Positions 4,265 through 64,000 of a stretch of DNA of 64,000 bases are shown piece by piece. The stretch is from a virus: positions 41,164 to 105,163 of the IMG/VR virus record IMGVR_UViG_3300042563_003224. One strand, given 5' to 3'. The notes under the pieces were generated by a model, which saw only the letters and a program-made list of their open reading frames with translations, searched no databases and was not told the origin of the DNA. Positions within the stretch are counted from its first letter, which is position 1; each line of letters starts with the position of its first letter. Made by a program: the position numbers and the translations under genes.

Positions 4265-4926
4265 GGTTGCAATTGCCATAAATCATCGGCTACTTTTTTC
4301 CAAGATAATGCATCGTTAACATAATCATCATCTGTGCAAACTCTGAGTATTTGTTTTCTACCTGAAAACATGCTGTCGATTGGATCAATGATATCGGTGT
4401 TCTGATGCCAGGCGGCAGTACAGCTGGGAATAGAATACACTTGCAACCATGGTTGATTTTCTCTAATCATTTCTAGTAGATAGTTGAATCCTAGATTCTT
4501 GGTATGTGTACACAACGGCCATGTGCTGCCAACTATAACTAATTTATGTAATCCTGTTTGTCTCATGTATTCTTCAAGTCCGCGAATTGTTGGAATAAAA
4601 ATAGAGTTACTGCCATTGGCCAATTCATGCAACTGAATACATAATGTTTCAGTGCCTAGCATGGAGACATAATCTTGTACGCTTTGTTGTTGTTCTGCCA
4701 ATGTAGTTGCTTGTGCCACCTGGGACTTGAAATAATGCACAACATCTTGTGTTATGATATCCAAACTTAAAAATGTTGTGTGGAATATAAATTGATCAAA
4801 GTCAAATTTGGCCAGGGTTTTGATCATGTTGTCATAAAAATTAACACCAGGCTCTAGTCCGACCCAGTTTATATGATTGAACTGGTCCCAACAATCAATA
4901 AAAACCACATAAGTTTTTTCGTTCAT
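4261..4926 (-). CDS. possible isochorismatase-fold hydrolase
   Basis: A 221-residue cytosolic protein. The N-terminal [10 protein letters not shown] and the later [14 protein letters not shown] resemble the first-strand aspartate and the catalytic-cysteine loop of cysteine hydrolases of the isochorismatase fold. The central lysine of that triad cannot be placed with confidence, so the assignment is tentative. It overlaps the IF-1 gene by ATGA and is probably co-transcribed with it. Other possibility: a phage-specific protein that keeps only the fold. Confidence 0.4.
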
Positions 4927-5141
4927 TTGTTTCGATACACTACTCGTCCTCGAGTTAGATCGTAAGGACTCATTTCTACTTCAACACTGTCGCCTAGTAG
5001 TATGCGTATGTTATTTTGTCGCAGTCTACCGCTGATGGTGGCAGTGATGCTGTGACTTTCGTTGATTCTGATCCTGAACATGGCATTGGGCAACACATCC
5101 TCTACTTTGCCCTCTAACCTAATTAGATCCTCTTTACTCAT
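4923..5141 (-). CDS. infA: translation initiation factor IF-1
   Basis: A 72-residue protein that aligns end to end with bacterial IF-1: [13 protein letters not shown] at the start, a central NAMFR and IRILLGDSV, and a C-terminal [11 protein letters not shown]. This is the single OB-fold that binds the 30S A site next to S12 and helps IF-2 and IF-3 select the initiator tRNA. Length and motifs are complete, so it should be functional. It sits between the isochorismatase-like gene (ATGA overlap) and a 2OG-oxygenase-like gene (8-base overlap), away from any host-type ribosomal operon, so it is phage cargo. Confidence 0.93.
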
Positions 5142-14525: not shown

Positions 14526-14814
14526 TTATAATCCTAACATCAGTTACATTCATCACACGAAATGATCTCCATTCGTTTTTGTCTAGACAGAATACGCTAA
14601 GTGTTTCGGGTTTGTATAAACGAGTTTGGTGATGTTCGTTTACGGCCCGAGCAGGCATTGCCGCCGCTCTAAGGGTGCAAGGCATGGTGCGTACAGAGCC
14701 ATCTACCTTGGTAAAAGTAATTTCGCAATCGTGTTCACTTAACAGATTACGGATATAACGATTGCGACTATCAGCATCACCTGCTAATTCTAGTACTATT
14801 TCAGTGTCGGTCAT
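14509..14814 (-). CDS. DUF2693-like SH3-barrel phage protein
   Basis: 101 residues. The segments SVRTMPCTLRAA and LSVFCLDKNEWRSFRVMNVTDV fit the DUF2693 family of phage proteins that contain a conserved R-x-M-x-C-T-L and W-R-S-F-R. Function unknown. It is coupled to the gene upstream by ATGA. Confidence 0.65.
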   Translation of the reverse strand: MTDTEIVLELAGDADSRNRYIRNLLSEHDCEITFTKVDGSVRTMPCTLRAAAMPARAVNEHHQTRLYKPETLSVFCLDKNEWRSFRVMNVTDVRIINEKSD

Positions 14815-14981
14815 TTGTCGCCCTTGTTACGACTAGTGCGTTGTCTAGAACCGTCTTGTTCGATTACAACATAACTACGCACAAAGGCACCACGAGTATG
14901 GTTGTCTAAAATCAGTGACGCGGCACGTTTTACACTCTTGCTGATCTTAACAGCTTTTGGATCATATCCTCTACAGGTCAT
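14811..14981 (-). CDS. small conserved phage protein (56 residues)
   Basis: Starts MTCRGYDPKAVKISKSVKRAA and ends RNKGDK with a TGA that overlaps the next ATG. The CRGYDPKAVK start and the central R.YVV are a pattern I know from T4-like phages. Basic, soluble, function unknown. Confidence 0.6.
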   Translation of the reverse strand: MTCRGYDPKAVKISKSVKRAASLILDNHTRGAFVRSYVVIEQDGSRQRTSRNKGDK

Positions 14982-15222
14982 TTTGTGTTTCCTTTTTAAA
15001 TTGTTTACGACAGGCTCGTTTCATAGCAGGAGTAAAGTCTGGATGTATCTCTGCTACACTGCAATTATACACATGATCTCTATCGTTGAGCAAGAGCTTT
15101 TGAACAATATTAATGCCAAGCCAAATCAAACCAAACAATGCAATCACAATGACTACATCTAATACCATAACTGTTAGTTTAAATAATTTTGTGTTTTCTT
15201 TGCTGGTGATTACAAATTTCAC
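14971..15222 (-). CDS. small single-pass membrane protein
   Basis: 83 residues with one long hydrophobic segment (about residues 15-42) and a basic C-terminal tail with two cysteines. Function unknown; overlaps genes on both sides. Confidence 0.5.
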   Translation of the reverse strand: MKFVITSKENTKLFKLTVMVLDVVIVIALFGLIWLGINIVQKLLLNDRDHVYNCSVAEIHPDFTPAMKRACRKQFKKETQNDL

Positions 15223-15413
15223 GCCAATGTGTCTACCTTTGTTCCTAACCCTCGACTTTTACCACCGATATCAAGTCGCCTTAGACGCATACGCTCGTTA
15301 TCAATGATGTCTGCGTTAATCTTTAATGATTGATGTTTGAGTTCCATTATGTGCTGATCTAACTGCTGGAGTTCCATTTGTTTCTGGTAAGATTGGACTA
15401 CATCAATTCTCAT
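15219..15413 (-). CDS. small helical protein
   Basis: 64 residues, mostly a charged helix (YQKQMELQQLDQHIMELKHQ). ATGA overlap with the ligase gene upstream and its downstream neighbour. Function unknown. Confidence 0.45.
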   Translation of the reverse strand: MRIDVVQSYQKQMELQQLDQHIMELKHQSLKINADIIDNERMRLRRLDIGGKSRGLGTKVDTLA

Positions 15414-16711
15414 AATTTCTCTCCTATTTCAAAGCCACGGAATCGAAGGAACCTAGGAAAGCGCAAACTGTAAGTACCATCTTGGTTCTGTGTTATGGCA
15501 TCGGCTCGCACTTCGACCACCTGGCCTGCACACTTGGCGCGATCCTGCCAAAAGTCTTCTCGCTGTTGGTCACTGAGTCCTGAACCTACATTGACTTGAA
15601 TGGCTCGTTCATCGTCAACACCTTCACATACCAGGGCACCTAACTTGCCCACATTGCGTCCTGTACCTTCTTCTGTATTTACGACAGTTAGGCTAACTTC
15701 AATAAAGGGTTTTTGTTTTAACCATGCGGTGCTTCTTTTACATTCGTAAACTGCATAAGGATCTTTGATCATAATGCCTTCGTATCCGCCTGCAATGGCA
15801 TCTGCATTGATTTGGGTAAAACGATCGGCACCCTCATCGGTATCTAGGTTCACAAGTTCCTGTCCCACAACTGACACATTGGGCATATGGTCTGCAATTG
15901 GCAAGTACCAGGCCAATAATTGCTCACTGCGTTTGTGCTGTGGACAACTGCTGACGCCTGATTGAAATTCCTTCAGTGGTAAGATGTCAAACAGGTTCAG
16001 CACCGCATCGTCGGTTCGGGCATCACCTTTGCGATGAATCTGCCGCATCAAGTCTTGAAAGTTTCCCGACATGATCTCACCATCTAACACTATTGGCTCT
16101 CGAAGAAACACCGCATGTTTGGCAATCTGTCGTTTAACTTCTTCAAAGTTCACCAGTTCTTTGCCATTGCGACTGTACTGATCAACTTGACCATTTGGGT
16201 ACACAATGGTAATCACACGCACACCATCAAGTTTGACTTCGATGACTTTTTCGCCAGAAACTTTACCTTCATGCTTGGCACCATCAAATGCCAATTGGCA
16301 CTCAAACACCGGCACATGAAACTTGGGATCTGCATGTTTGTTAATAGTACTATCACTAGTGCCACAACGCATGTCTTTGATCAAGATGCGTCGATACCAC
16401 AGATTCCATTCTGCTTCACGGGCATTCATACGCAGATAGTTCACTGCGGTAACGGCAGTATTGCCAGTGATACGGCGGTCGGCCAAGTCCTGTGCTGTTT
16501 TCCAAAACACTTCGCTAGTAAGTCCTTTGCCATCACCTGTTTTCTCGTCGACTTTTTTAACACCAAATGTGATCATGGCATCATATGCCGCACGGAATCC
16601 GCGGAACAATTCGGCATTGTCTGCCGCACTCTCTCGACGAATGATGGCTTCTTTTACTAGACGACTGTTGTCGGCTTCCAGCTCGGCAACAACTTCCCAG
16701 GGTTTGTTCAT
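15410..16711 (-). CDS. ATP-dependent DNA ligase
   Basis: 433 residues. The nucleotidyltransferase motif I is KLDGVR with K160 as the adenylated lysine. Further motifs include VLDGEIM, EGIMIKD and WLKQKPF, followed by an OB-fold with GRNVGKLGALVCEG. The N-terminal ~150 residues match the DNA-binding part of T4 gp30-like ligases. It seals nicks in phage DNA replication and repair. The gene is overlapped by ATGA at both ends, within an operon of small unknown proteins. Confidence 0.93.
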   Translation of the reverse strand: MNKPWEVVAELEADNSRLVKEAIIRRESAADNAELFRGFRAAYDAMITFGVKKVDEKTGDGKGLTSEVFWKTAQDLADRRITGNTAVTAVNYLRMNAREAEWNLWYRRILIKDMRCGTSDSTINKHADPKFHVPVFECQLAFDGAKHEGKVSGEKVIEVKLDGVRVITIVYPNGQVDQYSRNGKELVNFEEVKRQIAKHAVFLREPIVLDGEIMSGNFQDLMRQIHRKGDARTDDAVLNLFDILPLKEFQSGVSSCPQHKRSEQLLAWYLPIADHMPNVSVVGQELVNLDTDEGADRFTQINADAIAGGYEGIMIKDPYAVYECKRSTAWLKQKPFIEVSLTVVNTEEGTGRNVGKLGALVCEGVDDERAIQVNVGSGLSDQQREDFWQDRAKCAGQVVEVRADAITQNQDGTYSLRFPRFLRFRGFEIGEKL

Positions 16712-16953
16712 TTTGTTTCTCCATAGTGGATTGATTGGCCGGGCTTGATGCCCAAATAGTTCATGGCCATGATCAACATGAAATTGGCATGTTCTTTATT
16801 TTTGGGCAGTACAACTCTTTCACCTTCATTCAGTTGGCGTAGTTCTTCTTTGAGTTGTTCAAGTTCAAACACCAGGGGTCGAACTTCTAACCTCATAACT
16901 TCACGGGCTATGGCTTCAGCTTGACTTCTAGTAACTGGTACGGTATCTATCAT
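16708..16953 (-). CDS. hypothetical protein
   Basis: 81 residues from the ATG at 16953 (ATGA overlap). A charged helix (AIAREVMRLEV...LEQLKEELRQL) precedes a short domain. Possibly a ligase-operon partner. No family recognised. Confidence 0.5.
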   Translation of the reverse strand: MIDTVPVTRSQAEAIAREVMRLEVRPLVFELEQLKEELRQLNEGERVVLPKNKEHANFMLIMAMNYLGIKPGQSIHYGETK

Positions 16954-17321
16954 AATTGTTCCTCTTGTAGGGTTTCCCACATCATTCGCTTTTCACACTC
17001 GGCGCGAAACTGCTCGCGAAGCTCAGGGCTTTTACACCAGGCCTTGATGTTGGCATAACTGCCCTGTGCCTTGTTAGGTACATTTTCTCGTATCCACATG
17101 GCAGTGGCCCAAAACACCGTACGGCTCTGCCTGTCTGTGTTAAACAGGGCCCGTTCATATTCATGTGCCAACATGGCCTCCATGTGTCCACCGGGCAACA
17201 AGCCATCAAACAAGTAACGGTCCATTGCGGCCATTTGGTTGTCACTCCAACGCATGCCAACATATCGGGCATCGTGGTACATGCTACGATTATAATCAAT
17301 TGCGTTGGGCTTGTAAATCAT
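16950..17321 (-). CDS. hypothetical protein
   Basis: 123 residues from the ATG at 17321 (ATGA overlap with the SWIM gene stop). Helical, with RYVGMRWSDNQ and a charged end. No family recognised. Confidence 0.5.
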   Translation of the reverse strand: MIYKPNAIDYNRSMYHDARYVGMRWSDNQMAAMDRYLFDGLLPGGHMEAMLAHEYERALFNTDRQSRTVFWATAMWIRENVPNKAQGSYANIKAWCKSPELREQFRAECEKRMMWETLQEEQL

Positions 17322-17671
17322 TTTGCACTTTCGAATTCTTTGACATGTCGACAAGCACCGCGGAATTGGAATCCGCTACAAGTGCAATTATACACATTTT
17401 CTTCTAAGGTCACAATGTATATATCACCTTTTGAACCTGTGACTTCCCAACGATTGGGATTTGTAGTAACTTCAATCTCAAAGTTAGGTTGATTTTTTAA
17501 TGCAACAAATTTACGACCGCGGAGATCAATGCGTATGGCCGTTTTGAATGTTTTGATTTCTGTTGAGCCGGGTTTAATGTATGCATACATTTTGGTCTTG
17601 GAGTCATCCAACAAGTAAACACCGTTGCCAAATGGATCAGCCCATGTAGTAGTTTCTTGATAAAATTTCAT
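17318..17671 (-). CDS. SWIM zinc-finger protein
   Basis: 117 residues. The C-terminus carries C-x-C...C-x-H (CTCSGFQFRGACRH), the SWIM zinc-binding motif that mediates DNA or protein binding. The N-terminal ~85 residues are beta-rich. Probably a nucleic-acid-associated accessory protein. Confidence 0.65.
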   Translation of the reverse strand: MKFYQETTTWADPFGNGVYLLDDSKTKMYAYIKPGSTEIKTFKTAIRIDLRGRKFVALKNQPNFEIEVTTNPNRWEVTGSKGDIYIVTLEENVYNCTCSGFQFRGACRHVKEFESAK

Positions 17672-17874
17672 CGTGTCTCCTCAACCATACGCATGAATGC
17701 CCGCATCATGGTCTGTGCCTGTGCCAGGTTCTGCTCGGGTGTCTGCTGTTGCACACAGGCCGCTGTCACCTGCTGACGATGAAACTGTGCCAGGTTTGCT
17801 TGACAAGCGGTTTGTTCTGCATAGGTGCCAACTGTGGTGATACCTGTTGCAAGGATGATAATTAGATTGTACAT
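17668..17874 (-). CDS. small secreted protein
   Basis: 68 residues from the ATG at 17874. A signal-peptide-like start (MYNLIIILATGITTVGTYA) is followed by a Q-rich mature part with two cysteines. Function unknown. Confidence 0.45.
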   Translation of the reverse strand: MYNLIIILATGITTVGTYAEQTACQANLAQFHRQQVTAACVQQQTPEQNLAQAQTMMRAFMRMVEETR

Positions 17875-17875
17875 G

Positions 17876-18193
17876 TTAGTCGGCTCTTGAGCAGGCATAC
17901 GCATTCAGGCCTGCCTTACGCAGAACTTCGGCAAACGCATGAGCACCGGCTTCTTTGATGTCCATACTCTGTGTGAACGAACCACCGGGGTTCCAAACAC
18001 TCAGGCATTTTGGTTTGTAATCTTTCTTGAAACCTGCCGCAATCAATTCCTTGGCCTCTTTGGAGTTGGTACGATCCACAAACACATCAACCCAGGCAAA
18101 ACCACAGTAGCCAGGTTCACCATGACGAGCACGAAAGTCTGCTTCGGCTTGGCGGGCGGCTTCGAAAGCTTCTTGGACAATTTGATTCAACAT
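17876..18193 (-). CDS. conserved phage protein
   Basis: 105 residues from the ATG at 18193, which has an AAGGAG ribosome-binding site. It has RHGEPGYCGFAWVDVFVDRTNSKEAKELI, a pattern seen in other large phages. Driven by the promoter at 18224-18252; probably early. Function unknown. Confidence 0.55.
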   Translation of the reverse strand: MLNQIVQEAFEAARQAEADFRARHGEPGYCGFAWVDVFVDRTNSKEAKELIAAGFKKDYKPKCLSVWNPGGSFTQSMDIKEAGAHAFAEVLRKAGLNAYACSRAD

Positions 18194-21638: not shown

Positions 21639-21851
21639 TCATAAGAAAACTTCTTCACCGTGTTCATCGCATAAACTAATATAGTGTTTGTTAGGACCAA
21701 CAAACTTATACATCAAGTGACCTTGCTCTTTGTCCCGCTTGGTAAGAACCAAGTAATGCACTTGACCAAATTGGTTGGGCACTTCTTGAAACTTCTCGCC
21801 GTGGAATACAGGCAATATCTCTCCGTCACTTGTTTTTACACAAATCTTCAC
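21639..21851 (-). CDS. small protein encoded between the two tmRNA pieces
   Basis: 70 residues from a GTG at 21851 with AAGGAAG just upstream; the frame is open further up but would then run into the tmRNA acceptor. The protein is beta-rich (VKICVKTSDGEILPVFHGEKF, YISLCDEHGEEVFL) and its composition looks real. Its stop codon ends two bases before the coding piece begins. No family recognised. Whether it is translated from the precursor RNA is open. Confidence 0.5.
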   Translation of the reverse strand: MKICVKTSDGEILPVFHGEKFQEVPNQFGQVHYLVLTKRDKEQGHLMYKFVGPNKHYISLCDEHGEEVFL

Positions 21852-21862
21852 AAACTTCCTTA

Positions 21863-21932
21863 TGGTGGACCTGGGCGGCACTGCCCCGCCGTCTTGAATC
21901 CTTTTCTCAGTAACAGTTTACGCTGTTCTTGT
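21863..21932 (-). ncRNA. ssrA: tmRNA acceptor piece (two-piece, permuted)
   Basis: On the minus strand the 3' end reads GGCGG-GGCAGTG-CCGCC, a 5-bp T-stem with a 7-base loop. It is followed at once by CAGGTCC, A and an encoded CCA (21865-21863). CAGGTCC pairs with GGGCCTG of the coding piece (one G-U), giving a full acceptor stem. GGATTCAAGAC just before the T-arm provides the other half of helix P2. The T-loop GGCAGTG differs from TTCRANY, as I recall for permuted tmRNAs. The 5' end is set by an ATAAATA box at 21940-21946 and is approximate. Confidence 0.82.
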
Positions 21933-40796: not shown

Positions 40797-41168
40797 TTAA
40801 GCCACCTTTCGAAAATAACCATAGGGCAAGCCCTGGGTGAAAGCAAAATACTCCGAGTCGCCATTGGCGTGTTCGGCCTCCATGAGCCATGCAATCACAC
40901 GCTCGCGGTTTGTACCAGTGTGCATAAGATTCAGCACACGGTCTTCAAACCGCACAATGGCTTCGGCTTCTGCGGCCTTGCGAGCCGTTTCTTCTTGCTC
41001 GATCGCTTCGCCCAGTATTTTAAATTCGGCTTCAAAGTATTCCAGGGTCCAACCACTGGTGTCGACACCACGAGGGCGGACGCCATAAGCATCTTTGTAC
41101 ATGTCACTGTAGGTGGCCTGAGCTTGCTCCAGTGCAGACATTTCTTCCCAACTTTTGAACTGTTCCAT
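40797..41168 (-). CDS. conserved phage protein, early
   Basis: 123 residues from the ATG at 41168 with AAAAAGGAG upstream. Contains YSDMYKDAYGVRPRG, a motif frequent in small early proteins of environmental myophages, then a helical, E-rich part and a tail GLPYGYF. Function unknown. The promoter (41186-41226) resembles the operator-bearing ones without the palindrome. Confidence 0.6.
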   Translation of the reverse strand: MEQFKSWEEMSALEQAQATYSDMYKDAYGVRPRGVDTSGWTLEYFEAEFKILGEAIEQEETARKAAEAEAIVRFEDRVLNLMHTGTNRERVIAWLMEAEHANGDSEYFAFTQGLPYGYFRKVA

Positions 41169-54994: not shown

Positions 54995-55951
54995 TTAGGC
55001 TTGCTTACGGATAGCATCAACCAATCCTGGTGTGAACATGTCACGGAACTGATCATAAACTACAGCAGTTTGTGCTTTGGCCCAAGCCAATTCTTCTGTG
55101 CTCAAAGGTTGAATCTTTGCACCTTCGGCAGTTAGCTTTTGCTTGGCAATTTCGCCATCACGGATTGTTTCTAAACGCTCTTCACGCCCGGCTTCAATTG
55201 CGGCCTGCTTGATAACAGCCTTGACCGCAGGGCTCAGACTTTCCCAGAAACGGTCACCAATGATCATAGTGGTCAAGAACAAACTGTGTTCTGTGTCTAA
55301 CACAGTCTTGGTAACAGCATTTTGACCCAATGGGTAAATACGTGGATAATTAGTTTCTGCACCTTCACAGTTACCAGCTGTCATGTTGTCTACGATTTCT
55401 TCTAGTTCGCAAACAAATGGGTTCAATCCCAATGCACGGTAAGTTGCTTGTGCGACTGGGTTACGGTTGCTACGCTGTGTAGTTCCAGCCAACTCTGCCA
55501 GTGTACTGACTTCTTTGTTGGAAATCATTTGACGGAAACCACCCGAGTATGTGTAGCTCAAGCCACGAACATTGCTCTTTTCTTTCAATTTGGCCAACAA
55601 GCCTTCGCCAACTTCGCCTTCTAACACGCGAGTTGCGTGGTCATGACCTGCAAAGATGTATGGCAAATCAAATGCCAACATGTCTTGCTCATAGTGTTCA
55701 GCCAACCATGTGGTGTACATTTGGCTCATTTCAATCTTGCCTTGATCCATTAGATCTAACAAGTCGTGTTTTGTAACCAAGACGCCATCGTTATACTTGT
55801 GACTGTATTCAGTCAAAGTCATGATTTCAACTTGAACTTTTTCGCTGTCATTGCTGATAGCGGCATTCAAGTGGTCTTGGAAGTCTTTGGCGGCACGAAC
55901 AAATAGATTTAGTGGCTCGTGTGCGATTACCCAGCGGATTTTTGTAGTCAT
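54995..55951 (-). CDS. TRAP-type (DctP-like) solute-binding protein without signal peptide
   Basis: 318 residues from the ATG at 55951 with a GGAGA ribosome-binding site. The fold markers of DctP proteins are present: MSQMYTTWLAEHYEQDMLAFDLPYIF, the RSNRNPVAQATYRALG block around the binding arginine, NYPRIYPLGQNAVTKTV and a C-terminal helix. The N-terminus (MTTKIRWVIAHEP) has no signal peptide, and no DctQ/DctM membrane genes are near. It is either a cytosolic ligand binder or exported by other means. Confidence 0.75.
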   Translation of the reverse strand: MTTKIRWVIAHEPLNLFVRAAKDFQDHLNAAISNDSEKVQVEIMTLTEYSHKYNDGVLVTKHDLLDLMDQGKIEMSQMYTTWLAEHYEQDMLAFDLPYIFAGHDHATRVLEGEVGEGLLAKLKEKSNVRGLSYTYSGGFRQMISNKEVSTLAELAGTTQRSNRNPVAQATYRALGLNPFVCELEEIVDNMTAGNCEGAETNYPRIYPLGQNAVTKTVLDTEHSLFLTTMIIGDRFWESLSPAVKAVIKQAAIEAGREERLETIRDGEIAKQKLTAEGAKIQPLSTEELAWAKAQTAVVYDQFRDMFTPGLVDAIRKQA

Positions 55952-56085
55952 ATATGGTTTCTCCATTTAAAATTTAGTAAGGGTTTGCAAGCGTTCTAGG
56001 CATTGTATGCTAGTAAAAGGGTCTCTACCCTAAGCGTTTCGACAGCGTCGTCGTCGTCAACATTGCGTTGGCGTTTGCATAATAA

Positions 56086-56432: not shown

Positions 56433-58529
56433 TTAAAAACGCATCATTCCCCGTATAAACCAATTGTTAGTGGCTATATCGTCTTTTTGCTGTCTACTTG
56501 CATACACACCAATCGATTGATCTCGTGCTGGACTAAAAGCAACTCCTACTTCGGTATTTCTATATCCGTTGCTGGTACTAGATACATCACCCGATACGGT
56601 AAACTCATCAATTGCTTTTGCTACACGCACACCTGCTTCGGCATAACCTGTGGAATTATTAACACCATCTATAGTTCTAGCACTTTGTATATCGCCTGAC
56701 TCAGTATAACCGTTTCTGCGTGAAGTACCAAAAGTGTAGCCCACATAAGGGCGTACTTCTGCGGATTCTACGGGCAAGGTTGGTACATATAATCTGTTGC
56801 TAATCCAGGTGTCTGTGCCATTGGTTGTGTATGCATTGTTGAACAATCCACCAACACTACGATTTGTGGCTATATTGTTTCTAGCATGACCCAAATTGGT
56901 TGCCAATATATGCCCGTCATCAAATGTATAGATGCTGTATAAACCTGCCGCAACTTTGCCTTGTGTGGTTGTGCTGTCAGTGCCGGTCATTGTGGTATTG
57001 AATTGACTGTATTGAGCACCAACACGCCAATTTGGTTCAACTTTAACATCGCCACCAATGTTGTACATGTTGCTGGCAGCACCATAGCCGTCGCCCGCGC
57101 CAGTTGTTTGTCTACCACCGCGAATAAAGAAACTCTTTTGACCATCTTCGCTTTTGTAAACATCCATACGGAACGGATCCATGTTTAAACTGCGATTAAT
57201 ACCTGTGTTAAGGACGGACAACTTGGCCTGTTGGTCAATACGACCACTGAAACTGTCATTGACCACTGCGGTATCCACATTGTTTTCTACCGTGACTATA
57301 CTGGTAGGAGCCGCATCAGTGAATGTAGTGGTACCATCACTCCATGTAGATGTGGTACGAACCCGAGTTGTCACTGTACGATCATATGGTGTTGTGGTAT
57401 TTGTAGTTGTTTCTCTACCAACAGTCTGTACTGTGGCAGTTTCACCCGGAGTATGATGCGCCAGGCTGGCAATGATGACCGGAAATGAGGTATTAATAGT
57501 TCGTGTGTCGGACACTGCAATGGTTGATGTTGCTGTGCTTACCACTGTAGGAGAACTACTACCGCCAGTTGCCGCCGCATCAGTTGCTGAACCAACATCA
57601 GTTAAAGTGCCGCCACCTGGAACAGAGCCTGCCGTGCCGCCACCTGCACCTCCGGTTATGGCATAGTTAGCCGCGCCAAAAGCGTTTGGTCCGAATATGT
57701 AAGCATACTGAAAGTTAACTATGTCACCAGGTGCTACATTGTTTACTAGAAAGCCAAGCCCGATTGTAACATCACCGCGACCGTAGTCTACGGTAACACC
57801 ACCTGATGTGTATGGACTGTACCCGTTGTAGTATATCACCGGGTTAGTGGTCCAATTGTTGGCGTCACCACCAATACCTGCGCCCACATTTGCGGCCGCA
57901 CTATACAGGCCCAGGGCATAACGACTGGTTGTGGCTTCAGCGAAGGCCACATTTGTGCGTGGGATGGCACCGTAGCCCAACACATTGTCTGTGGCACTGG
58001 TATCACCGGTCATGGGCATGGCGTCTGGATCAATGAAACGACCAAAGTACAATCTGCCTATAGCAACACTAGCGGTAATGCCGGTGTTGATGTTGATGTA
58101 GCGTTGACCGCTGGGTAAACTATAGTTATTTGTGATGGTGAAGTCGCTAGTAGAGGCACTCCATATGGCACCGGCGGCTGTGGGTGTTCCAACCCAGGCG
58201 CCGGTTGTGATACTTCTAGCACCATTATTGTTGTTTGTGTATGTACTAACTAGTGTTCCGCTACTGTCTTCTAAACGAACAGTAAAGCCTTCAAAAGGTG
58301 AACCGGGTGTTAGGTAGTCACCTTGACATGTATCGCACGGAAATGTACCGGTACCAGTGTTGTCGTACTGTAGACCGGGACGAGTACTACCACCTGAGCC
58401 CAAGGTACCAGTAGATAGGTTTACACCTGCACGAACATATTCGTTTTCAATTATGACATTTTGTGATATGGCTGTGGTGGCCACGAAGACAGAGAAGGCC
58501 GCGAGGGCCTTCGAAAAATAATAGCGCAT
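56433..58529 (-). CDS. large outer-membrane beta-barrel protein
   Basis: 698 residues. Signal peptide MRYYFSKALAAFSVFVATTAISQ; a long passenger-like region of T, G, A, N and S-rich strands (about residues 24-440); and a C-terminal ~250-residue barrel-like domain (RGGRQTTGAGDGYG, YRPYVGYTF-type strands) that ends in NNWFIRGMMRF, with the aromatic last residue needed for barrel assembly. It resembles autotransporter-type proteins. It is likely displayed on the infected cell. Function could be adhesion, receptor masking or superinfection exclusion. Confidence 0.75.
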   Translation of the reverse strand: MRYYFSKALAAFSVFVATTAISQNVIIENEYVRAGVNLSTGTLGSGGSTRPGLQYDNTGTGTFPCDTCQGDYLTPGSPFEGFTVRLEDSSGTLVSTYTNNNNGARSITTGAWVGTPTAAGAIWSASTSDFTITNNYSLPSGQRYININTGITASVAIGRLYFGRFIDPDAMPMTGDTSATDNVLGYGAIPRTNVAFAEATTSRYALGLYSAAANVGAGIGGDANNWTTNPVIYYNGYSPYTSGGVTVDYGRGDVTIGLGFLVNNVAPGDIVNFQYAYIFGPNAFGAANYAITGGAGGGTAGSVPGGGTLTDVGSATDAAATGGSSSPTVVSTATSTIAVSDTRTINTSFPVIIASLAHHTPGETATVQTVGRETTTNTTTPYDRTVTTRVRTTSTWSDGTTTFTDAAPTSIVTVENNVDTAVVNDSFSGRIDQQAKLSVLNTGINRSLNMDPFRMDVYKSEDGQKSFFIRGGRQTTGAGDGYGAASNMYNIGGDVKVEPNWRVGAQYSQFNTTMTGTDSTTTQGKVAAGLYSIYTFDDGHILATNLGHARNNIATNRSVGGLFNNAYTTNGTDTWISNRLYVPTLPVESAEVRPYVGYTFGTSRRNGYTESGDIQSARTIDGVNNSTGYAEAGVRVAKAIDEFTVSGDVSSTSNGYRNTEVGVAFSPARDQSIGVYASRQQKDDIATNNWFIRGMMRF

Positions 58530-60069: not shown

Positions 60070-60375
60070 TTAGATACTTATTCTTTGTATAATTTCTTGG
60101 TAAAAAGTGTCTACTTCTCCGCCAAACTTACCAATTATGTGCGGAAAAAGATCGTTACAGATCTTGTAGTCTTTGATGTTATAAGCATCAACAAATGCTT
60201 GATGTAACTTGCAGTTGTGATCAAGTTGTGGTAATTCTGACAAGTTAATTCGATCCGCGGGAATAACACAATATGCATCTAAAGTTATGCCATCTTTCAC
60301 AATGGTTTCTAACTCCAACACAGTATGTTGTTTTCGTAATTCTTCTGCTACCACACGACTAAAAATTATTTGCAT
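60070..60375 (-). CDS. hypothetical phage protein
   Basis: 101 residues, soluble, alpha/beta, with QLDHNCKLHQAFVDAYNIKDYKICNDLF. The pattern is known to me from large environmental phages. Shares one base with the exonuclease gene upstream. Confidence 0.55.
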   Translation of the reverse strand: MQIIFSRVVAEELRKQHTVLELETIVKDGITLDAYCVIPADRINLSELPQLDHNCKLHQAFVDAYNIKDYKICNDLFPHIIGKFGGEVDTFYQEIIQRISI

Positions 60376-60905
60376 TATTGTTTTTGTATCCCTAGTTTAT
60401 TATATACCTGTTGTACCGCAGTGGCTTGGCTAACACAGTCTTCCAAGGCATTGTGTAGTCCTGCTTTGCCTTTGACTCTTGGATCTCCGTGTACTCCAAA
60501 TAGTGTACGACTGTCACGGATTTGCCAGTATTGCCAAGGAGTAGGCCACCCCATCTGTCTATACAAGTTTTCCAATATAGCAAAATCGAACAAAGGACCT
60601 TGAGCCCAAATATTGTTGGCGCCTACTAGAAATCTATTTAAGTCTCGATACAGGGTATCTAAACTAACACGCTCGTTTTCGCCCAGGGCTTCTTCACGGA
60701 TGTCATCGGCCTGGCTAATCCACCAAGCAAGAGTGTCTTCTTGCACTTCGCGACCCAGTGCTGTTTGTTCATCTACATCCACACGAAAGTAAATACCTGG
60801 TCCCGGGTCACTTAATGTATAAGGGTCAAACTTAATTGCACCCAGAGTAAGTATGACGCAATCTGGGCGAGTTCCTAGTGTTTCTAAATCAAGCATGATG
60901 TCCAT
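60375..60905 (-). CDS. DEDDh 3'-5' exonuclease
   Basis: 176 residues. MLDLETLG holds the first D-x-E, WAQGPLFDFAILENLY the middle Asp, and GLHNALEDC the H-x-x-x-x-D end. This is the exonuclease VIII/RNase T-like family seen in T4-like phages (dexA-like). It degrades single-stranded DNA or RNA 3' ends. It has a perfect promoter with the -10 box six bases before the ATG. Confidence 0.85.
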   Translation of the reverse strand: MDIMLDLETLGTRPDCVILTLGAIKFDPYTLSDPGPGIYFRVDVDEQTALGREVQEDTLAWWISQADDIREEALGENERVSLDTLYRDLNRFLVGANNIWAQGPLFDFAILENLYRQMGWPTPWQYWQIRDSRTLFGVHGDPRVKGKAGLHNALEDCVSQATAVQQVYNKLGIQKQ

Positions 60906-60911
60906 ACTTGT

Positions 60912-60940
60912 ATTATATGCTATTATTTACTTTGTGTCAA
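60912..60940 (-). promoter_or_regulatory. consensus sigma70-type promoter, leaderless geometry
   Basis: TTGACA, 17 bases, TATAAT, ACAAGT, ATG on the minus strand. The ten bases before the start match those of the UvdE gene. Confidence 0.8.
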
Positions 60941-61402
60941 GAGTTTTTGGCTTTCTGCGGCAACCACACGGCTACGCAGACCCGAACTGGAGAACGAATG
61001 ATCTCTGCCGTTGAACACTAGTTCAATCCCGCGCATTCCACATTCCTCCATGCCAGAGAAATTTATATGTTGATATTCCACACCCAAGATGCGTACATCC
61101 ACAGGCAAGATCAACAACAGGTCCCTAAGGTCCTGTTCAGTTTGATACACAACAACTTCGTCCACATAACGGCATGCGGCCAATTGTATTTGTCGTTCCA
61201 CAATACTTTGTACAGGTTTGTTTTTGGTATCCGGGCGATCGATTGTGGGATCTGTTTGCAAGCCACAAATTAGATAATCGCAATGATTCTTGGCTTCACT
61301 CAACATGGCAATATGTCCGGCATGGAGCATGTCGAATGTGCTGAATGTTATACCAATTTTTTTACCTGCGTCTTTGAGTTCTCTAATGTGATTGAATATC
61401 AT
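60923..61402 (-). CDS. cytidylyltransferase-like nucleotidyltransferase (TagD type)
   Basis: 159 residues. GITFSTFDMLHAGHIAML carries the H-x-G-H motif, and SFSSSGLRSR the second nucleotide-binding block. Activates a phospho-alcohol with CTP (glycerol-3-phosphate, or a heptose or other sugar phosphate). It may feed a surface polymer pathway with the dehydrogenase and glycosyltransferases. ATGA overlap with the ClpS gene upstream. Confidence 0.75.
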   Translation of the reverse strand: MIFNHIRELKDAGKKIGITFSTFDMLHAGHIAMLSEAKNHCDYLICGLQTDPTIDRPDTKNKPVQSIVERQIQLAACRYVDEVVVYQTEQDLRDLLLILPVDVRILGVEYQHINFSGMEECGMRGIELVFNGRDHSFSSSGLRSRVVAAESQKLLTQSK

Positions 61403-61710
61403 GTTTCTATTTCAAGTTTGACACTCAGCGGGAATCCGTGACTGCGAGCCAGCAAGGTGACTTCGACACCTTTTTGTTCTGCAATCTCATAGGGTAGTAC
61501 TGCTACCACCGCCGATCCTGCTTCGTGAATCTTTTCTGTGATTGCCACAGCGGCCGATTCATCATAGTAAAACATTATCTTTAATGTTTCCACAACAAAT
61601 TCCATGGTGGTTACTTCATCATTGATGTAGATCACTCTATATTGACTAGGTTCTTTGAGTTTAACCTTAGGAGCAATCTTTGGTTTATTTTTAGTTTCAG
61701 GTTCTGCCAT
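61399..61710 (-). CDS. clpS: ClpS-like adaptor
   Basis: 103 residues. A basic N-terminal extension (PKIAPKVKLK) is followed by the ClpS core: YRVIYINDEVTTMEFVVETL with the D-E pair that binds N-degrons, A...I..H..G.AVV, and a C-terminal SHGFPLSVKLE. It binds ClpA and delivers N-end-rule substrates. A late-like TTAAATA box lies seven bases upstream of the start. Confidence 0.88.
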   Translation of the reverse strand: MAEPETKNKPKIAPKVKLKEPSQYRVIYINDEVTTMEFVVETLKIMFYYDESAAVAITEKIHEAGSAVVAVLPYEIAEQKGVEVTLLARSHGFPLSVKLEIET

Positions 61711-61717
61711 AGTATAG

Positions 61718-61724
61718 TATTTAA
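61718..61724 (-). promoter_or_regulatory. T4-late-like promoter box
   Basis: TTAAATACTATACT then ATG at 61710; seven bases between box and start codon, the same layout as at 23032. Confidence 0.5.
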
Positions 61725-61761
61725 CACAAGGGTGGATGAGTCCACCCTTGCTTAGATTATA

Positions 61762-62205
61762 TTACTTTGTGAAAGTAATTGCAATCTTTTTGGGCTTGTC
61801 TTCTTCAGGCACTAGTTGTTCTAGTGCAATAGAAAGAATACCGTTTTTAACAGTGGCCCCACAAACTTCAATATGTTCTGCCAATGGAAATGTGCGAGCA
61901 AAATTGCGGGCACTAATACCTTTGTGTAGGTATTCAACTTCTGTTTCGTCTTTGGCTTTGTCGCCACGGACTGTCAAGATGTTGTCCTTTAGTTCTACAT
62001 CAATTTCGCTGTCAGCAAAGCCAGCAACTGCCAACTCAATCACATAGTGTGTGTCGTCAATTTTGATTACATTATGTGGGGGATAGTTGCCATCGCTTTT
62101 GCTGTTGGCAAAAGTGCGATTTAACTGTGCAAACAATTGGTCAAAGCCAATGGCATGACGGTGTAGGCTAGGTAAATCGAGGGTGTGAAGTGTGAATTGT
62201 GTCAT
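61762..62205 (-). CDS. Hsp20 small heat-shock protein (IbpA-like)
   Basis: 147 residues. GFDQLFAQLNRTF, YPPHNVIKIDDTHYVIELAVAGF and a final IAITF are typical of the IbpA branch, with the alpha-crystallin domain at residues ~40-130 and a C-terminal I-x-I-type motif. It holds unfolding proteins. Cyanophages carry similar genes. It has a good ribosome-binding site (AAAGGAG). Confidence 0.9.
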   Translation of the reverse strand: MTQFTLHTLDLPSLHRHAIGFDQLFAQLNRTFANSKSDGNYPPHNVIKIDDTHYVIELAVAGFADSEIDVELKDNILTVRGDKAKDETEVEYLHKGISARNFARTFPLAEHIEVCGATVKNGILSIALEQLVPEEDKPKKIAITFTK

Positions 62206-62272
62206 GTTGTTTCTCCTTTAATAAGCAAGTTATGACTTTTGTAATGTAGCCCCATAATGGGCGCTACATGTT

Positions 62273-62279
62273 TATTTAT
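62273..62279 (-). promoter_or_regulatory. T4-late-like promoter box
   Basis: ATAAATA, about 67 bases upstream of the Hsp20 start. Confidence 0.45.
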
Positions 62280-62296
62280 TATACAGAAAAAATTAT

Positions 62297-62536
62297 TTAA
62301 TACAACTTTTTTGGTAATTCTTGGTCACGCAACTTTTTACGCCAACGGGCCTGTGCCGCACCTCGTTTGCGTTTGCGTTCGGTTGTGGGTTTTTCAAAAT
62401 GTTGGCGTTCTTTTATTTCTTCAAGTAGTCCCGACTCTTGGATTTTTTTCTTGAATTTGCGTAGAGCTTTATCCACTTGATCATTTTGAACAATTACGCT
62501 ACATCCGCGAATTGGTTTTGGTTTGTAATATGACAT
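62297..62536 (-). CDS. rpsU: ribosomal protein bS21
   Basis: 79 residues. RGCSVIVQNDQVDKALRKFKKKIQESGLLEEIKERQHFEKPTTERKRK is the bS21 fold, with its very basic C-terminal tail. bS21 sits at the 30S platform next to the anti-Shine-Dalgarno region and helps choose initiation sites. A late-like box is four bases before the start, so it is probably made late. Confidence 0.93.
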   Translation of the reverse strand: MSYYKPKPIRGCSVIVQNDQVDKALRKFKKKIQESGLLEEIKERQHFEKPTTERKRKRGAAQARWRKKLRDQELPKKLY

Positions 62537-62547: not shown

Positions 62548-64000
62548 TTAAATTTTACCTTGTTGTTGATTTTTTAAATATTCAGCTATTTGGGTTTGTT
62601 CTGTTTCACTGAGCTCGTCCGGATCGTACTCGCCCGAAGCAATTTTATCTACCAGATGTTTGATATATGCTTCATTAAATACGTAGTTATCTGTTAGTGA
62701 TTTATCACTTTCAACCCACTTGGACCCATTCCATTTGAACAATTTACTGGGTAGATAATCTGTACGCAAAAACATGTCACCCTTGTTTGGCTTCAACGGA
62801 AACGATGTTCCGAAGTCAGCATTTGATGCGTTGCCTAAACTGGGATGATTATCTGCTAGGGCACTTAATTCTGGAAACTGTTGTTTAAACGAGTCAATGC
62901 TATAACTACGGCCGTTATGCATTAAATGATCGCTGTTTGTTAAAAATACCAAGTTATCGTCGGGTGGTAGCGGTTCATCTAATGCCGCAACTTCCGCTTC
63001 AGTAAAAGGTCTAGTTTCAACAGCGGAAATCTCCCCAGGGGCGAGTATAGCCATTGCGGCCGCATCTTCGTGTATGGCATGTGTGCTGGGTGGGGGTGGC
63101 GCCACCATGGGCATAAGATTCTTAAAATGTTCAAATGGCCGTTTTAAATATGCCAAAGGGTCAAACTTAGTTTGAGGTTCATCGGGCTCGTTCTGAGCTA
63201 TGGGCTCAGCGACTTCCGGCGCTGTTGGTGCCTCTACCGTTGGTTCATCTAAAATTGATCCCGATTCTTTCTTGTCTCGTTCTTCTTGGGCCCACTTGAT
63301 GCTTTGTTGTGCGGCTAGTATTAATACCAGTGCCAAGGGATCAAACACCAGCACAATAATAATGATCACCAGCCTGACAGCTCGTTCTAATACATTCTGA
63401 TCAGGATTGTCGCCATACACCAGGGCCGCTATGTATTTTATAGGACCGACTTCTGATTCGATCTTCCTGTTCTCTGCGGCGAGAGGTGCCCGGTCTTCAT
63501 TAAGTTGACTAATTTTTTTCTGTTCGGCCTCGATCTCGGCTTGTAAACGGGTTCGCTCTTTTTGCTGAGATCTGCGTATAGAGACTGCTTTATCGGCACC
63601 CTTTTCATCTGAGCTTCGGCCCATGACTTGATCCACTGCCTCATCATACTGTTTAAGAACTTTGCGGTTAGCATCGATATTGTCCCTTGCTATTTTGATT
63701 TTTTCATCGTATATGGCTACCCGGGCCATTGAATCACCTGATACTAAACTTTGATCACTGTGTGCTTTACTCAGGAATCCAAAGATGCCCATGCTTGTTA
63801 ACAGCATTAAGAATGCCACAGCCGGAACAAGATAAAACTTGTACAACAGGCTGGCTCGTTCCCAATACATCTTTAGCCAAATAGCCGCAGTGACTTTGCC
63901 AACTTCTAGGCTGGCACCCATGATCATGATGGGGATCACAGCGGCTGAGAAAATGGCAGTTAGGCCTATAATACTGTAGTAGGCCGCAATGGCACTGATG
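62548..64000 (-). CDS. large membrane/coiled-coil phage protein (partial, N-terminus outside window)
   Basis: The frame is open through the window edge; the residues before the GTG near 63939 (IGLTAIFSAAVIPIMIMG) continue a membrane segment, so the true start is outside. Visible: two N-terminal membrane segments (one at LLYKFYLVPAVAFLMLLTSMGIFGF), a long coiled coil with K, E, Q and R, a further membrane segment near VRLVIIIIVLVFDPLALVLIL, and a proline-rich then ordered C-terminal part ending LKNQQQGKI. It is a protein type found in T4-like environmental phages; function unknown. Confidence 0.6.
   Translation of the reverse strand, partial: ISAIAAYYSIIGLTAIFSAAVIPIMIMGASLEVGKVTAAIWLKMYWERASLLYKFYLVPAVAFLMLLTSMGIFGFLSKAHSDQSLVSGDSMARVAIYDEKIKIARDNIDANRKVLKQYDEAVDQVMGRSSDEKGADKAVSIRRSQQKERTRLQAEIEAEQKKISQLNEDRAPLAAENRKIESEVGPIKYIAALVYGDNPDQNVLERAVRLVIIIIVLVFDPLALVLILAAQQSIKWAQEERDKKESGSILDEPTVEAPTAPEVAEPIAQNEPDEPQTKFDPLAYLKRPFEHFKNLMPMVAPPPPSTHAIHEDAAAMAILAPGEISAVETRPFTEAEVAALDEPLPPDDNLVFLTNSDHLMHNGRSYSIDSFKQQFPELSALADNHPSLGNASNADFGTSFPLKPNKGDMFLRTDYLPSKLFKWNGSKWVESDKSLTDNYVFNEAYIKHLVDKIASGEYDPDELSETEQTQIAEYLKNQQQGKI

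Follow-up and report, generated by a model that had tools for sequence, protein, structure and literature searches.

ClpS is known as the adaptor that makes the ClpAP protease turn to N-degron substrates in place of ssrA-tagged ones (PMC9663308). Iyer et al. (2021) noted ClpS in phages, proposed that it uses the host ClpAP, and described ClpS phages as having ClpS "instead" of ClpP. For the Agrobacterium jumbo phage Atu_ph07, the available part of Attai et al. (2018, PMC6102473) lists ClpX, ClpA, a ClpP-like protein, ClpS, and DnaJ together and cites a role of ClpS in aggregate removal for this set; linkage and wide distribution of the Clp set are not discussed in that part. In phages encoding ribosomal protein bS21, the available part of Chen et al. 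(2022, PMC9723584) places bS21 with structural genes, reports its late expression in other phages, and counts, within ten genes of it, Hsp20 in 127 genomes and two groups of Clp proteases (50 and 47). Permuted tmRNA is also known from aquatic phages (PMC9004378).

Here we describe a locus at the end of a 64,000-nucleotide stretch of viral DNA (the window), which corresponds to positions 41164–105163 of the 105,163-base IMG/VR record IMGVR_UViG_3300042563_003224. The record is a linear fragment without end repeats, and its last ORF continues past the end. Transcription of the minus strand runs through a membrane/coiled-coil protein, bS21, Hsp20, ClpS, a nucleotidyltransferase, a 3'-5' exonuclease, and a 101-residue ORF (Table 1). 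The adjacency of ClpS, Hsp20, and bS21 noticed in a previous sequence-only reading of this DNA is confirmed, with all three ORFs in place on the minus strand and above their Pfam gathering cut-offs. The membrane/coiled-coil protein has a homologue in Salicola phage SCTP-2 (2.7e-35), where it lies ahead of ClpX-bS21-ClpS.

Table 1. Features of the locus and associated elements (window coordinates).
Feature	Position	Strand	Support
Translation initiation factor IF-1	4923..5141	-	PF01176 77.5 bits vs cut-off 30.2
Permuted (two-piece) tmRNA, tag AKKVNANDSQFALAA	21475..21966	-	RF04321 113.5 bits; RF01849 73.7 bits
Conserved 101-aa ORF without assigned function, last gene of the syntenic block	60070..60375	-	59/81 loci
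3'-5' exonuclease, Rv2179c-like/phrog_255	60375..60905	-	profile matches
Cytidylyltransferase-like nucleotidyltransferase downstream of ClpS, 4-base overlap with ClpS	60923..61402	-	PF01467 3e-12
ClpS adaptor, 103 aa (∼20-residue N-terminal extension and canonical ClpS core)	61399..61710	-	PF02617 E=1.4e-24, 86 bits vs 23
Hairpin between Hsp20 and ClpS, 11-bp stem, no U tract	61727..61750	-	-19.7 kcal/mol, z=-3.0
Hsp20, IbpA-type small heat-shock protein, 147 aa	61762..62205	-	PF00011 E=1e-19, 71 bits vs 20.8; phrog_432 2e-39
Hairpin in Hsp20 5' leader; Shine-Dalgarno further downstream, outside the stem	62244..62269	-	-18.6 kcal/mol, z=-3.9
Late-promoter-like box TATAATAAATA upstream of the Hsp20 leader hairpin	62272..62283	-	consensus match only
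bS21 ribosomal protein, 79 aa	62297..62536	-	PF01165 E=1e-15, 57.7 bits vs 27; TIGR00030 over cut-off; PDB bS21 chains 3e-14
Membrane/coiled-coil protein upstream of bS21, 5' end past record end	62548..63999	-	phrog_11591 virion structural, 2e-6, C-terminal part only

Two other genes of the record are unusual for a phage. These are a TRAP-type DctP solute-binding protein (window 54995–55966, minus strand) and a 698-residue protein with an autotransporter β-barrel domain (window 56433–58529, minus strand), whose barrel has homologues in a few related loci. Outside the window, the record also encodes a CoA-transferase domain protein (L083:12591-13943) and a fatty-acid desaturase-like protein (L082:5419-6066).

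The AlphaFold model of the phage ClpS (pLDDT 86) finds its best PDB match in ClpS bound to the ClpA N-domain (1mbx, rmsd 0.8 Å, TM 0.90), and TM-scores normalised by target reach 0.90–0.97 against E. coli and Caulobacter ClpS. Residues N30, D31, and H62 are equivalent to N34, D35, and H66, which together with the substrate pocket we take to provide recognition of the free N terminus, and the T38 equivalent is also kept. E75 and K80 are equivalent to E79 and K84, presumably the residues by which ClpS contacts the ClpA N-domain. Among 56 distinct ClpS relatives, the equivalents of N34, D35, T38, E79, and K84 are present in all and that of H66 in 54. The first 20 residues of the ∼20-residue N-terminal extension have low pLDDT and are predicted to be disordered, so that an extension of the type able to enter the ClpA channel is predicted to be present. 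The proline at its junction with the core (P21) is invariant, and some relatives carry a tandem PP. The gatekeeper position equivalent to M40 is methionine in 35 of the 56 relatives, glutamine in 14, valine and threonine in three each, and histidine in one. In the ClpS proteins studied, this position governs which N-terminal residues are tolerated; because it varies here, part of the clade may have shifted its specificity. Phage ClpS remains under the NCBIfam equivalog cut-offs (72 vs 149).

The neighboring Hsp20 comprises an α-crystallin domain and a C-terminal IAI motif of the IxI type (the sequence ends KKIAITFTK). It scores 149 bits against NCBIfam IbpA, under the equivalog cut-off of 212.

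A ClpS scan of viral contigs returned at least 593 ClpS-encoding stretches. Among the best 80 of these, every locus has Hsp20 as the gene immediately before ClpS, in the same orientation (80 of 80; median gap ∼38 bases), and the arrangement is therefore not due to chance. Together with our own locus (81 in all, again from the best 80 of at least 593), bS21 is found in 57 loci, the nucleotidyltransferase in 74, the exonuclease in 70, and the upstream membrane protein in 63; some loci are short contigs, so these counts are lower bounds. The same query patterns gave one match in 84,980 bacterial and archaeal genomes, compared with at least 593 in viral contigs, and a recent capture of a bacterial clpS operon is thus not supported. 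Scans with the single ClpS proteins of PA5oct and Atu_ph07 retrieved one locus each, and the lineages taken together diverge too far for their joint alignment to serve as a scan query.

The bacterial-type order clpS-clpA was seen only in contigs of Acinetobacter "phage" MD-2021a, which we excluded for their bacterial-looking gene content; in one of them (CAKLQF020000008, L091), clpS-clpA sits beside argC, aroF, and other chromosomal genes. An actinobacterial MAG contig (CAINSH010000125, L097) carries a phage-type ClpS near its end beside bacterial scpA/scpB-like genes and is possibly a chimera or an insertion.

In more distant cultured jumbo phages, the order is ClpX-bS21-x-QueD-Hsp20-ClpS in PA5oct, bS21-x-x-Hsp20-TK-ClpS in Atu_ph07, Hsp20-TK-ClpS in Phosso, and IF3-bS21-ClpS in Vibrio 2.275. 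Salicola SCTP-2 has ClpX-bS21-ClpS behind the homologue of the upstream protein, and its bS21 is annotated as hypothetical. In viral contig L095, Hsp20-ClpS is preceded by DnaK-GroES-GroEL (these three identified by eye from sequence), which makes a compact row of chaperones and adaptor. The bS21/Hsp20/ClpS genes are closely preceded by ClpX in 20 loci of the same set (the best 80 of at least 593 relatives and our own), and this ClpX overlaps or abuts bS21 where bS21 is found; it is likewise upstream of bS21 in SCTP-2 and directly before it in PA5oct. Because the TIGR02639 search also catches ClpX-like AAA pieces, those beside bS21 were assigned to ClpX by phmmer with PA5oct ClpX.

Such linkage could arise without joint function, if the upstream membrane protein, ClpX, bS21, Hsp20, ClpS, the nucleotidyltransferase, and the exonuclease were independently useful late genes in an old conserved block, kept together by shared timing or slow rearrangement. 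The entire block is indeed syntenic, unrelated enzymes included, some ClpS-encoding members lack bS21 and tmRNA, and the available part of Chen et al. (PMC9723584) would lead one to expect bS21 beside late structural genes. We nevertheless regard this explanation as quite improbable: the adjacency or near-adjacency of Hsp20 and ClpS is kept in PA5oct, Atu_ph07, and Phosso despite their otherwise different neighbors, and also in L095, and ClpA and ClpP co-occur with ClpS although unlinked to it. In PA5oct, Atu_ph07, and this clade, the shared block may go back to common ancestry and not to repeated selection.

Outside the window, the record encodes a ClpA of 764 amino acids (record positions 14767–17061, minus strand), directly preceded by a DnaJ/CbpA-like gene (record positions 17112–17966). 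This ClpA is divergent, since it scores 825 bits against TIGR02639, under the equivalog cut-off of 993. Its best PDB match is E. coli ClpA (1ksf, 9e-185) with an alignment over almost the entire length, and it possesses the Clp_N domain, both AAA modules, both Walker pairs, and the pore loops KYRG and GYVG. The ClpP-docking tripeptide IGF is intact (within RKSIGFGS). Among 80 viral ClpA loci, IGF is found in 72, with close variants in the others, and DnaJ adjoins ClpA in 78, as it does in PA5oct and Atu_ph07.

ClpP was not found in the 105-kb record, including the ∼40-kb interval from ClpS to the tmRNA where relatives carry it; the order ClpS...ClpP...tmRNA on one strand holds in 12 of 13 IMG/VR records having all three, and the span also lacks ClpP in G010, G013, and G025. 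As far as this incomplete fragment can tell, a local loss of phage ClpP is likely in this lineage, so that host ClpP would be needed and is probably the peptidase on which the phage machine docks here. Elsewhere, ClpP accompanies ClpS in 17 of 22 ClpS-positive IMG/VR records and in 10 of 10 cultured ClpS-positive phages, and the nucleophile motif (GQACSMG/GIAASMG) is intact in all eight sequences read directly.

We searched 54 whole records for ClpS, ClpA, ClpP, Hsp20, bS21, and permuted tmRNA. The 22 IMG/VR records with ClpS contain Hsp20 in 22 cases, bS21 in 19, ClpP and permuted tmRNA in 17 each, and ClpA in 15, whereas the 16 records without ClpS contain no Hsp20, bS21, or ClpP, two tmRNAs, and 16 ClpAs, a contrast confounded by fragments and by how the records were chosen. 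Among the ClpS-positive IMG/VR records that reach 150 kb or more, ClpA and Hsp20 are present in 14 of 14, ClpP in 13, and bS21 and tmRNA in 12 each; ClpA was the basis for choosing eight of these records and ClpS for the other six, and the counts overstate the number of independent events because some records are near-duplicates. Ten cultured phages have a ClpS match (XaC1 weakly, 5e-4); all ten, five of which were chosen for having ClpA, encode ClpA and ClpP, and four encode Hsp20. None of ClpS, ClpA, and ClpP was found in T4, Syn1, HTVC103P, or Melnitz, apart from a 135-base AAA-type match in Syn1. Of 21 records chosen by ClpA, 13 lack both ClpS and ClpP. Five of these 13 are 155–208 kb long, one of them (G022) with a tmRNA, and fragmentation may not explain all such cases.

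From these counts in the long (≥150 kb) IMG/VR records and the cultured phages, ClpS-ClpA-ClpP is a tight unit, Hsp20 is tightly associated within the clade, and bS21, tmRNA, and IF-1 are separable. The sequence-only reading had been made to depend beforehand on co-occurrence beyond chance, which is found for ClpS with Hsp20 and, in this clade, with bS21. Within the clade, IF-1 is common, occurring in 11 of 12 tested IMG/VR records, but of the ten cultured ClpS-positive phages only one has it and most lack tmRNA. The co-occurrence also contradicts the view that phages have ClpS "instead" of ClpP (Iyer et al., 2021).

The same counts bear on which protease the adaptor serves. The sequence-only reading, close to Iyer et al. 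(2021), had the cluster feed the host Clp proteases; phage ClpS would retarget host ClpAP, shielding ssrA-tagged phage proteins and sending host N-degron proteins to destruction. Binding to host ClpA is plausible given the invariant E79/K84 equivalents, our own record lacks ClpP, and host ClpAP is what Iyer et al. proposed for phage ClpS. We still find this account unlikely, as ClpA is carried by every ClpS-positive IMG/VR record that is 150 kb or longer and by every cultured ClpS-positive phage tested, and nearly all of them carry ClpP as well, which would be needless if the host machine were the target. Because this phage has its own ClpA and most relatives their own ClpP, the client of ClpS is probably the phage ClpA, and of the proposed host dependence there is left at most a host ClpP acting as peptidase here.

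The tmRNA does end its tag in LAA, as the sequence-only reading had stated (AKKVNANDSQFALAA, ...ALAA). It was not detected by ARAGORN, probably owing to its long intervening segment, most of which is filled by an 80-residue open frame (window 21639–21881, minus strand) without a Pfam match or a relative among the fetched sequences. Long tmRNA spans (412–603 bases) also occur in G009, G013, G024, and Phosso. No tmRNA above the Rfam cut-offs was found in the ClpS-positive phages PA5oct, Atu_ph07, Vibrio 2.275, SCTP-2, CBB, RaK2, Munch, GAP32, and XaC1 or in the ClpS-positive G003/G005/G007 clade; standard tmRNA (RF00023) gave sub-threshold matches only, which are left out of the counts. Since ClpS persists without a tmRNA passing these cut-offs in many phages, tmRNA is not a consistent partner of ClpS. 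The suggestion that the two are balanced against each other is accordingly weak, and we rejected it as the main reading because most cultured ClpS carriers lack tmRNA.

A late-like box had been proposed for each of the three genes, which is true in a loose sense only. By a T4-type late criterion (a TATAAATA-type promoter with a leader length upstream of each gene), only Hsp20 has a good box (TATAATAAATA near 62280, a consensus match). For bS21 and ClpS, TAAATA stands just 4 and 7 bases ahead of the ATG, too near to allow for the leader that a T4-type late promoter would have, and the motif discriminates poorly because the 80 bases preceding each of the 133 minus-strand genes contain it 30 times in all. 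Across the 105-kb record, ATAAATA is found 23 times on the minus strand and twice on the plus strand, a bias consistent with a motif of late-promoter type on the strand that carries most genes. An RNA thermometer in the Hsp20 leader is not supported, as the strong hairpin leaves the Shine-Dalgarno sequence uncovered.

We favor, with moderate confidence, a reading in which the phage encodes a machine for unfolding and degradation built around ClpA, with ClpS as its adaptor and Hsp20 as its holdase, both encoded beside a phage bS21. Drawing on the genes, their intact motifs, the predicted fold, gene order, and co-occurrence, we infer that a complex would form, along with its substrates, its timing, and its benefit. 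The IbpA-type Hsp20 would hold misfolded or over-produced proteins, and the phage DnaJ would pass them to host DnaK or phage ClpA. ClpS would dock on the N-domain of phage ClpA and steer it toward proteins that are aggregated or have destabilizing N termini, diverting it from those that bear an ssrA tag. ClpA would then thread substrates into ClpP, encoded by the phage in most relatives and probably supplied by the host here. Protein quality control in a late, assembly-heavy cell, the removal of host regulators or defense proteins, or both could be the benefit. Quality control combined with targeted degradation seems the simplest reading because an IbpA-type holdase lies beside ClpS and DnaJ beside ClpA.

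More tentatively, and with rather less than even confidence, large environmental phages might possess an entire N-degron protease of their own, made up of ClpA, ClpP, and ClpS and assisted by Hsp20 and DnaJ, with which they would rewrite the proteome of the infected cell. Its ClpS would have changed substrate choice in part of the clade (position 40 from M to Q/V/T/H); lineages like this one would keep motor and adaptor and plug into host ClpP.

Phage proteases and chaperones are usually listed singly. The set described here is fixed, comes back in large phages that are only distantly related, and is plentiful in environmental viromes. This points to a virus-owned pathway of targeted degradation and speaks against the published proposal that phages with ClpS just make use of host ClpAP; probably the virus has a degradation route of its own and does not rely solely on that of the host. 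The Clp genes of Atu_ph07 and the counts of Hsp20 and Clp genes near bS21 were already known from the available parts of the respective papers. The strict coupling of Hsp20 to ClpS and the co-occurrence of ClpS, ClpA, and ClpP appear undescribed in the openly searchable literature, outside of which most subscription papers lie.

Among known systems, cyanophage Syn1, pelagiphage HTVC103P, and Methylophilales phage Melnitz share the Hsp20 family with this phage, and Melnitz also bS21 and a permuted tmRNA, but they lack the Clp set. The bS21-encoding phages of Chen et al. (2022, PMC9723584) differ in that, in the available part of the paper, ClpS is not named, no link to ClpA/ClpP is drawn, and the new clades are predicted to infect Bacteroidetes. 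Atu_ph07 has dnaJ and clpA adjacent and hsp20 near clpS, as here, whereas a thymidine kinase separates hsp20 from clpS, the genome measures 490 kb, and a permuted tmRNA match is lacking. Pseudomonas phage PA5oct (Arenbergviridae) resembles our phage in ClpX-bS21-...-Hsp20-ClpS and DnaJ-ClpA and has ClpP; it differs in two other genes between bS21 and Hsp20, a ClpS only ∼38% identical, and no tmRNA match over the cut-off. In comparison with the E. coli ClpAPS N-degron protease, the phage genes are dispersed (clpS by hsp20, clpA by dnaJ) instead of forming the bacterial clpS-clpA pair, the gatekeeper at position 40 varies, and ClpP is apparently absent in this phage. The likeness to ClpAPS lies in the ClpS pocket and ClpA-contact residues, in the domain layout, pore loops, and ClpP-docking tripeptide of ClpA, and in the ClpP active-site motif found in phage relatives.
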